From Microvirga sp. KLBC 81 (lineage in GTDB: Bacteria; Pseudomonadota; Alphaproteobacteria; Rhizobiales; Beijerinckiaceae): DNA of 64,000 nt. This document shows, piece after piece, positions 2,424 through 16,176 of the stretch. The translations under genes were made by a program, and so were the position numbers. The notes beneath the pieces were generated by a model that saw nothing but the letters and a program-made list of their open reading frames with translations, was not told the DNA's origin and searched no databases. Where the stretch lies: the NCBI RefSeq assembly GCF_003075415.1, contig NZ_QDAH01000013.1, positions 1-64,000 on the forward strand. The letters are read 5' to 3'. The first letter of the stretch is position 1. The number at the start of each line of letters is the position of its first letter.

Positions 2424-2547
2424 CGGCAGCTCGCAAAGCAATATTGCATCAATTTTGATCGGTTTATCTTAAGGCGCTCCCGCTCTCCCTTACAGGTCCG
2501 CCTTTTTCATAGGCGAAAAAATGGGCAGCTTTGCTGACCTTTTAATC

Positions 2548-2576: not shown

Positions 2577-2582
2577 TTGCAG

Positions 2583-2672
2583 TGCAGCACGGCGATTGGC
2601 GTCGCAGTGCAGCTGCCCTTCTTGGGCGTTTCCTCCCTAAACTTCGGGCCGCTGTCACCAGCGGCCTTTTTT
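2583..2672 (+). ncRNA. mmgR: Candidate alpha-r8 / MmgR-type trans-acting small RNA
   Basis: No plus-strand coding gene precedes this stretch, yet it ends in a textbook intrinsic terminator. It carries a small hairpin (GCCC 2615-2618 with GGGC 2624-2627), then the single-stranded decamer TTTCCTCCCT at 2629-2638, then the terminator. That decamer between two hairpins is the hallmark I recall for the MmgR/alpha-r8 sRNA family of Alphaproteobacteria, an Hfq-linked RNA that limits polyhydroxybutyrate accumulation in Sinorhizobium. The motif is complementary to Shine-Dalgarno sequences, so it probably blocks translation of its targets. The predicted length of about 75-90 nt fits the family. The 5' end is inferred from a promoter-like sequence and is not exact. 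Confidence 0.72.
2647..2672 (+). terminator. Rho-independent terminator of the sRNA
   Basis: 8-bp stem GGCCGCTG (2647-2654) with CAGCGGCC (2659-2666), loop TCAC, then six T. It is the 3' module of the MmgR-like RNA. Confidence 0.9.
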
Positions 2673-2767
2673 CTTGGGTTCAGAACGGGTTGAGGCCGGA
2701 GGTCTCACCTCAGGAACCTCGTGCACTCCCGGTGGTTTCCCCATCAAGAGAGTCCGGGAGAGTTTCG

Positions 2768-3148
2768 ATGTCCACCCGTTCAGACAACCCCAATCACAGA
2801 GACATTCCGCGCACGCACACCATCAAGCCTATGGATGCACCGCCCATGAATGCGGGCTCGACCTCGGCGCAGCTGAAGGGCGACATCAACAGCGGGCGCA
2901 CGGGTGACAAAAACGAGGTTTTCGATCCCGGATTGTCGCCGCTGGGCACCGACGACGAGGCTGGAGGTGTTTCACCGAGTTCGGATCAGGTCGATCTCGC
3001 GCGCCACCAGGAAAGCGTGGCCCGCTGGCAGAACGGCAACGACAGGGACAGCTACGCCCACCAGCACTCGCGCAAGGCGCTTTATGCCTATGTGGGCTTC
3101 ATCGCCCTCGTTCTCGTGCTCTTTGCCGGCGCCTTCTCGATGTTCTGA
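2768..3148 (+). CDS. Small membrane-anchored hypothetical protein
   Basis: A 126-aa protein from the ATG at 2768 (MSTRSDNPNHRDIPRTH). The first 95 or so residues are polar and rich in Gly, Ser, Asp and Pro, likely disordered. Residues about 105-124 (YAYVGFIALVLVLFAGAFSMF) form one transmembrane helix ending at the C-terminus, a tail-anchor arrangement with the polar part probably cytoplasmic. I know no function. Its 3' end overlaps the convergent LacI regulator gene by 61 bp. The frame stays open upstream to 2582, but that extension would run through the sRNA terminator, so the ATG at 2768 is preferred. Confidence 0.65.
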   Translation: MSTRSDNPNHRDIPRTHTIKPMDAPPMNAGSTSAQLKGDINSGRTGDKNEVFDPGLSPLGTDDEAGGVSPSSDQVDLARHQESVARWQNGNDRDSYAHQHSRKALYAYVGFIALVLVLFAGAFSMF

Positions 3149-15042: not shown

Positions 15043-16176
15043 CTATTGCCCGTTTGCGAGCTTGGTCGCGTCGAGCTTCGTCACATCAATGGTGTTGTCG
15101 ATCTTCACCGTCGAGCCGGCCTGCAGTTTGTTCTGCCCCGAAGCCACGACCTGCTGACCGGGTGTGATGCCGGAGAGGATCTCGAGAGTGCCCCCGCGGC
15201 GGCGGCCGGTTTTCACGAAAACCTGTTTGACGACCTGAACCTGGTTGCCTGCCCTTTCTTCCTGCTCGATCGTGTAAACATAGTCGCCATAGAGGCTGGT
15301 GATAACCGCCGTCTGTGGCACGGTAAGGACGTTGGGCTGCTCCGGCAGGATCACTTCGACGTGCAGGAACTGCCCCGGCAGGATGGCCCTGTCCTTGTTG
15401 TCCTCGATGAGAGCCTGCACGGAGACGAGGCGCGTCTTCGGATCGACGCGCGGATCCTTACCCGTCACACGCCCTTTGAAGGGAAGATCCGTCTCGCTCA
15501 CGCCCAGTCGCACCTCCTGGCCGAGCTTGACGTCATCCGCCAGCTGCTCAGGAACCGTGAAGTCGACCTTCATGGAATCGAGATCCTGGAAGCTCGCAAT
15601 CACCGATCCGGGCTGGAGATATTGTCCAACATCGATCCGCGGAATGCCGATCACGCCCGAGAACGGCGCCTTCAGGGCCTTCTGCTCGAGGGTGGCCTGC
15701 AGGCGTGCAAGACGGGAGCGCGCTGCGGCAAGCAGGGCGCTCGCCTGATCGAGATTCGCCTCGGTACCAAAGCCGCGCGACGACAGCGTCTTGGCACGTT
15801 CGAACGCGCTTTCGGCCGTCTTCACCGCTGCCTGAACATCCTGAATGTCGGCGCGCTCGACCGTATCGTCGAGCTGGACGAGAACATCGCCCTCGCGGAC
15901 GTTCTGGTTGGCCTTGAACTTGATTTCCTTGACGATGCCCGCCGTCTCGAAGGCAAGCTCGACCCCGTTCGCCGCCTTGGCCGTGCCGATGGCGGCAATG
16001 CTCGGCGTCCAGGTCTTCGCCTCCACCTTGGCAGCCGACACCGTTTGCGGCGGGGGCTGCATGTTGGCGAAGAACTGGGTGATCATCTTGTCCCGAAAGA
16101 TGTTGAACCCAACCAGCCCGGCACAGAGCAGGACCGCGAGAATGAAAACGAGACTGACTACGATGCGCCGTTTCAT
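15043..16176 (-). CDS. RND efflux periplasmic adaptor (membrane fusion protein)
   Basis: A 377-aa HlyD/AcrA-family adaptor. One N-terminal transmembrane anchor covers residues 5-27 (IVVSLVFILAVLLCAGLVGFNIF), with no lipobox. A lipoyl half-motif VREGDVLVQLDD (near 98-109) and coiled-coil hairpin (ADIQDVQAAVKTAESAFERA..ASALLAAARSRLARLQATLE) follow. The second lipoyl half LKAPFSGVIGIPRIDVGQYLQPG is near 170. Beta-barrel and membrane-proximal domains complete it (VPQTAVITSLYGDYVYTIE). It bridges the RND permease and the outer-membrane duct and is the first gene of the operon, divergent from tetR by 144 bp. Confidence 0.95.
   Translation of the reverse strand: MKRRIVVSLVFILAVLLCAGLVGFNIFRDKMITQFFANMQPPPQTVSAAKVEAKTWTPSIAAIGTAKAANGVELAFETAGIVKEIKFKANQNVREGDVLVQLDDTVERADIQDVQAAVKTAESAFERAKTLSSRGFGTEANLDQASALLAAARSRLARLQATLEQKALKAPFSGVIGIPRIDVGQYLQPGSVIASFQDLDSMKVDFTVPEQLADDVKLGQEVRLGVSETDLPFKGRVTGKDPRVDPKTRLVSVQALIEDNKDRAILPGQFLHVEVILPEQPNVLTVPQTAVITSLYGDYVYTIEQEERAGNQVQVVKQVFVKTGRRRGGTLEILSGITPGQQVVASGQNKLQAGSTVKIDNTIDVTKLDATKLANGQ

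Follow-up and report, generated by a model that had tools for sequence, protein, structure and literature searches.

The systems closest to the RNA described here are MmgR of Sinorhizobium meliloti, a member of the alpha-r8 family (RF00519, 'suhB'), and SisA to SisD, the alpha-r8 RNAs of Caulobacter crescentus. MmgR is reported in passages of PMC8401924 to be 77 nt long and to be repressed by AniA, and its predicted structure has three stem-loops according to the part of a review devoted to it (PMC7143759). For Caulobacter, the passages of PMC12559287 on the Sis RNAs describe a multi-copy family in which one copy is linked to an N-formylglutamate amidohydrolase (FGase) gene, the usual neighbour of alpha-r8, and the others lie elsewhere; pairing of the SisA decamer upstream of a start codon was proven by compensatory mutation, the validated target being the mRNA of a TonB receptor. 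A literature search on small RNAs and Microvirga, judged by titles, found no paper on the subject.

Here, we analysed a 64,000-nt stretch of the genome of Microvirga sp. KLBC 81 (hereafter the window), in which an earlier note had proposed an alpha-r8/MmgR-type gene at 2583-2672 on the plus strand and had suggested a scan with the Rfam covariance model. We establish that the window carries a genuine copy of this alphaproteobacterial regulatory RNA family, with the family architecture, a covarying 5' stem, a conserved locus and conserved promoter-like elements. The scan placed RF00519 (suhB/mmgR) at 2608-2682 (+). Its score of 76.1 bits (E 5.7e-14) exceeds the cut-off of 41, and nothing else in the 64 kb rose above an Rfam gathering score. 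Besides passing the cut-off, the copy has the family's three stem-loops, unpaired decamer after a small hairpin and Rho-independent terminator, and the family assignment of the note was borne out by all of these together with a gene order shared by 31 of 48 Microvirga genomes. The segment 2583-2676 folds with a z-score of -3.48, none of 200 shuffles being equally stable. We consider it probable (roughly 0.8) that this is a stand-alone, trans-acting RNA of about 90 nt with its own promoter and terminator, whose decamer blocks Shine-Dalgarno sequences and whose transcription is tuned through PhaR and an upstream dyad. The copy is an ordinary, well-conserved member of a family that was already known.

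Several parts of the RNA had been read correctly from its letters. The small hairpin, GCCC-UUCUU-GGGC, lies at 2615-2627 (arms 2615-2618 and 2624-2627) and its pairs are the same in 60 of 60 aligned rows, in agreement with the fold. It is followed at 2629-2638 by the decamer TTTCCTCCCT, in the RNA UUUCCUCCCU, which is unpaired in the fold and likely the anti-Shine-Dalgarno seed; it is invariant in the 60 rows, its CCTCCC part partly by construction, since the script that found the copies was anchored on CCTCCC. The strong terminator (2646-2672) consists of a stem at 2646-2667 and a T-run at 2667-2672 and is seen in the Rfam match, in the fold and in a terminator scan, which gave two overlapping terminator-like sites in a 501-base region against a shuffle mean of 0.4. 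The earlier list of elements did not include a 5' stem-loop at 2584-2613, mostly outside the Rfam model, with an outer helix at 2584-2588/2609-2613 and an inner helix at 2592-2595/2602-2605.

Covariation in this 5' stem was assessed for Microvirga, on 100 distinct contexts obtained from 110 stretches (the copies of the genome itself, 30 genus loci, 15 flank stretches and 60 next-ranked copies), which represent the better-scoring copies and hold 91 distinct RNAs; 60 of these, hand-picked for variety, were aligned. In the alignment all five pairs of the outer helix show changes on both sides and 98.3% of cells are paired, and across the 91 RNAs each position of the stem is paired in 93-100% of rows, with arms such as GCAGC/GCTGC, GCAAC/GTTGC and GCGAT/ATCGC replacing one another among copies. 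For the whole structure, none of 500 shuffles reached the observed value on four of five measures and one did on the fifth; cells changed on both sides numbered 95 against a shuffled mean of 32 in the 60 rows, and sliding the partners lowered paired cells from 99.2% to 33.7-59.2%. Related rows and a structure taken from the same sequences favour a positive result, but 95 cells against a mean of 32 would be hard to get from relatedness and a self-derived consensus. We claim the stem for Microvirga only, because in the class-wide set, where 31 of 40 copies fold at this place as single sequences, 64% of shuffles do so too. The viral copies considered below gave 67 of 75 against 69% of shuffles, and an energy threshold was reached by 70 of 75 copies and 308 of 375 shuffles; folding by itself thus proves nothing for the stem in either set. 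Since the review counts three stem-loops in MmgR (PMC7143759, relevant part), the 5' stem may nevertheless be general to the family and only missing from the Rfam model.

The stem also bears on the ends of the gene. The first position of the Rfam match, 2608, sits in its 3' arm, so the gene should start upstream of that point; placing the start from the -10 region gives 2583 ± 3. An RNA of about 90 nt near 2583-2672, as originally proposed, thus fits the data better than 2608-2682, and would be longer than the 77 nt reported for MmgR in passages of PMC8401924, with which it otherwise shares the covariance family, the decamer, the hairpins and the terminator.

The genome of this strain has four copies above the RF00519 cut-off, on contigs C13 (the window), C10, C77 and C58. 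Two weaker matches with altered decamers, on C16 (35.6 bits; stretch L005, 1501-1574) and C12 (30.1 bits; stretch L006, 1501-1592), are possibly diverged relatives. A pattern combining the 5' stem, the second hairpin and the decamer picked out 17 stretches in a collection of named genomes, every one of them from Microvirga. A match above the cut-off is present in 48 of 48 Microvirga genomes, with 1 to 11 matches per genome at E 0.001, and a class-wide draw of 190 genomes gave a match in 107, above the cut-off in 86. Three Microvirga genomes (G024 C36, G030 C1, G023 C47) each have two alpha-r8 genes pointing the same way and separated by about 0.8-1.8 kb. The C10 copy lies tail to tail with an FGase gene (PF05013, E 6.3e-77) and so holds the usual alpha-r8 neighbourhood; the window copy is therefore its paralogue, sitting in a slot of the genus, and would probably act alongside it under different control. 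The multiplicity and the single FGase-linked copy, like the decamer itself, are shared with SisA-D as described in passages of PMC12559287, whereas several copies per genome and the absence of FGase beside the window copy set this locus apart from MmgR.

The slot consists of pgm (plus strand, ending at 1982), a VOC (glyoxalase) gene on the minus strand (2010-2441, PF00903), the RNA, a gene for a small protein that is hydrophobic over a C-terminal segment (2768-3148, plus strand, matching no Pfam family) and lacI. It is kept in 31 of 48 Microvirga genomes, the better-scoring copies that were read in the other 17 lying elsewhere. As the note had it, the RNA stands between the VOC and small membrane protein genes, with no plus-strand gene directly ahead of it.

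Upstream of the RNA, the promoter-like TTGCGA (2548-2553), 17-nt spacer and TAGTTA (2571-2576) are in the plus strand as the note had claimed; the hexamers are weak, below the consensus threshold of the promoter scan, and no sigma-70-type site was found at the scan threshold. Over the start site, at 2577-2589 (+), lies TTGCAGTGCAGCA, a PhaR-like TGC-N2-TGC box that reaches with its 3' half into the foot of the 5' stem. Boxes of the form TGC-N2-YGC occur at this fixed position in 87 of 100 copies, a conservation that is partly that of the overlapped stem foot; seven of eight control windows had the box in 0-3 of 100, and the eighth, which had it in 34, takes in part of a second box situated between -35 and -10. 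Among 40 class copies the box is present in 26, or in 29 within the whole 78-nt stretch; control windows of that length had it in 92 of 1115 cases. PhaR sites are given as TGC-rich in Paracoccus and Rhodobacter and as NGCN(3)GC[GA]N(3) in Bradyrhizobium in passages of PMC10888616, and 2578-2589 fits this 12-nt consensus, a motif of low information. The genome itself has a PhaR gene, and four of five phasin upstream regions inspected carry TGC boxes (TTGTGCNNTGCACAA or close), the remaining one having none; two of them contain CATATCGCAGTGCAGCA, a string shared with the start-site box of the window. The promoter box hints at a possible control of the PhaR/AniA type, the kind reported for MmgR.

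Ahead of the -35 element, at 2523-2539 (+), the dyad GGGCAGC-N3-GCTGACC forms a candidate operator. Its strict form, GGGCAGC-N3-GCTGNCC, occurs at four places in the genome, three of them at alpha-r8 copies, so that it is nearly private to alpha-r8 promoters there, and a loose pattern is found at 53 of 100 copies. The other alpha-r8-linked dyads of the genome lie on C58 (6075-6091) and C77 (7124-7140). A role as terminator of the neighbouring gene was considered and thought unlikely, because the dyad accompanies the RNA at differing loci. The dyad is common to three of the four copies here, whereas the siblings SisA-D share no upstream motif according to passages of PMC12559287. We propose that PhaR (AniA) would hold down transcription of the RNA at the predicted TGC box and that an unnamed factor would tune it at the dyad, which would together tie the RNA to carbon and PHB status.

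Once transcribed, the RNA would act with Hfq, its unpaired decamer pairing with Shine-Dalgarno regions of the GGAGGAAA type and blocking translation; the messages hit would mainly be those for periplasmic uptake proteins and for carbon catabolism. The motif GGGAGGAAA followed by N1-10-ATG occurs at 18 distinct places of the genome (19 rows). When starts are restricted to ATG codons behind the motif that open a frame of 100 aa or more, 11 remain, of which six encode solute-binding proteins and the other five members of the 3-hydroxyisobutyrate-dehydrogenase, xylose-isomerase-like, AMP-binding, aldehyde-dehydrogenase and CBS families. Of the ORFs behind HGGAGGAAA, 6 of 15 encode solute-binding proteins, and of those behind GGGAGG without AAA, 0 of 13 (14 rows less one duplicate). 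For these two motifs 30 loci each were read, out of 56 and 684 rows, the GGGAGG set comprising one test gene and 29 loci all on contig C1. Pooled over GGAGGAAA starts, 12 of 26 ORFs encode solute-binding proteins, whereas none of the 13 controls, all of which come from C1, does so (Fisher p 0.003). The first letter had no effect (6/11 for GGGAGGAAA against 6/15 for HGGAGGAAA, p 0.69), and for this reason the bias may be one of plain Shine-Dalgarno strength.

Genome-wide counts gave no clear excess for the decamer complement AGGGAGGAAA (17 places, four of them the antisense of the RNA genes themselves, against 9 for the reversed string) and no clear enrichment for GGGAGGAAA ahead of ATG, which has 18 distinct places where the other three first letters together have 56 rows (55 of them distinct). 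Candidates could not be told from controls by RNAduplex runs of the whole RNA against leaders (mean z of -0.36, -0.58 and -0.58 in the three sets). AbcR1/2 sRNAs exert anti-Shine-Dalgarno control on the solute-binding proteins of ABC transporters in a similar manner but belong to a different RNA family. We take the list of uptake genes, whose leaders include those of TctC, Peripla_BP_4/6 and SBP_bac genes, as a lead. It is of the same kind as the target of SisA, where the decamer binds ahead of the start codon of a TonB receptor mRNA (passages of PMC12559287), while the candidates here are periplasmic solute-binding proteins. A sponge RNA was not seen among the 17 perfect decamer complements of the genome: four are the antisense strands of the RNA genes (36 of 36 identical) and the other 13, with an extended identity of 14-21 of 36, look like chance or Shine-Dalgarno sites. 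Among these perfect complements there is thus no counterpart of the CrfA sponge of Caulobacter (passages of PMC12559287).

Other explanations of the element were weighed against the stand-alone RNA. The neighbour gene could have suggested that the element is its 5' leader or an attenuator whose terminator controls read-through, and the small protein does stay next to it in the 31 syntenic loci, while a GTG-start open frame at 2582-3148, in frame with the small protein, whose likely start is the ATG at 2768, crosses the element. Against this, none of the four neighbours was near the same RNA in 69 of the 100 distinct copies (in the stretches read), and a GGAAC-N16-18-GTT element stands 3' of the RNA terminator in 31 of 31 syntenic loci (spacers of 17 or 18 nt) as compared with 11 of 620 control windows. 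In the window this element is GGAAC-N17-GTT at 2713-2737 (+), which we take to resemble the consensus of EcfG stress promoters. The gene of the small membrane protein thus probably has its own promoter, and control by the general stress response is suggested. The earlier idea that the leader of this gene may be affected by the RNA is weakened by the same element and by a leader affinity of z 0.09, and we regard the leader explanation as very improbable. Hardly more credible is a silent or degenerate paralogue, folded yet untranscribed, with the other copies active: it is prompted by four copies in one genome, by the weak promoter hexamers and by an A.A mismatch (2586 x 2611) in the 5' stem of the window copy, the sole A.A there among 91 rows, five others having A.C or A.G, but the dyad, the CTTG at -35 and the slot are kept in all 31 syntenic loci (the dyad by its loosened pattern), 27 of which also retain the start-site box.

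A third possibility concerns function, namely that the RNA is an MmgR orthologue that pairs directly with phasin mRNAs and thereby mainly keeps PHB granules in check. MmgR has a negative effect on PHB and phasin proteins, and the note had carried the role in limiting PHB over from Sinorhizobium. Membership of the family, the PhaR-like box at its start site and the S. meliloti phenotype described in passages of PMC8401924 all speak for it, and it deserves more credit than the two preceding explanations. We still find it unlikely, as the 16 phasin domain hits of the genome all lie more than 2 kb from each of the 17 perfect decamer complements and the 18 GGGAGGAAA-N1-10-ATG starts, in a search of perfect pairing only, and direct pairing is not identified in S. 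meliloti either in the passages of PMC12559287 that deal with it. The distance check was added because the listing of phasin starts, up to six candidates for 12 of the 16 hits, may miss the true start of long ORFs. Without a perfect complement near phasin domains, the PHB role of the window RNA is unproven, and we retain the stand-alone, decamer-acting RNA as the preferred reading.

Relatives of this RNA are also found on plasmids and in phages. Blastn matches covering 42-100% of the query were obtained in 33 plasmid records, 18 of them from Methylobacterium, the hosts being Methylobacterium, Methylorubrum, Microvirga, Bradyrhizobium, Methylocystis, Niveispirillum and Indioceanicola; one plasmid copy scored with Rfam passed the cut-off with 70.6 bits. 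Plasmid pMPPM03 is among the matches (stretch L159, 3011-3088). A copy of 62.8 bits lies at 16066-16146 of OP596613.1 (stretch L158, 2997-3077), the deposited sequence of Bradyrhizobium phage ppBeUSDA76-1, which is marked complete. A 23-base core of the RNA was present in 92 viral-contig stretches, of which 80 (L281-L360), with 77 distinct surroundings, were examined; 20 of these 80 copies were scored and all passed, the lowest at 41.9 bits. Some viral contigs may hold host stretches, the form of the RNA in L293, L299, L312 and L315 being similar to that of Microvirga. The start-site box was found in 6 of 80 viral copies.

Alpha-r8 RNAs on viral contigs often stand ahead of HNH or terminase genes. 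The longest ORFs on either side were scanned. Downstream, 16 of 73 belong to phrog_9, the family of the terminase large subunit; upstream, 11 of 68 match a replication-initiation family and 8 a transcription antiterminator, with overlap between families. A homologue of the ppBeUSDA76-1 terminase was found at 21 of 81 loci, the phage included, in all 21 downstream and on the same strand, at a median of 1034 bases after the RNA core. The setting is not uniform, tail sheath or methyltransferase genes downstream and major head or endolysin genes upstream having two to three members each. The place ahead of packaging genes resembles, as we see it, the pR'-tR' of lambda. Lateral transfer of alpha-r8 has already been stated, citing earlier work, in a passage of PMC12559287. 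Our literature search found no paper on alpha-r8 in phages, nor is it mentioned in the phage passages of PMC12559287, PMC7143759 and PMC3091675. We tentatively raise the idea, at somewhat less than even odds, that alpha-r8 is a mobile regulatory module beyond its housekeeping role, multiplied with its dyad promoter in Microvirga, carried on Methylobacterium plasmids and acquired by many phages of alphaproteobacteria, in which it often precedes the packaging genes and for the most part has no PhaR-like box.

In Microvirga, the boundary of the Rfam model falls inside a 5' stem that covaries, and the short list of uptake genes offers testable targets for the RNA. The phage relatives of alpha-r8 are a surprise and a worthwhile lead. 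If the mobile module is real, phage copies would flood the alpha-r8 network of the host, so that nutrient uptake is shut or a sponge is soaked up, and late antitermination might make use of their terminator. Should the phage copies prove functional, they would exemplify phages that steer host feeding via a host sRNA family.
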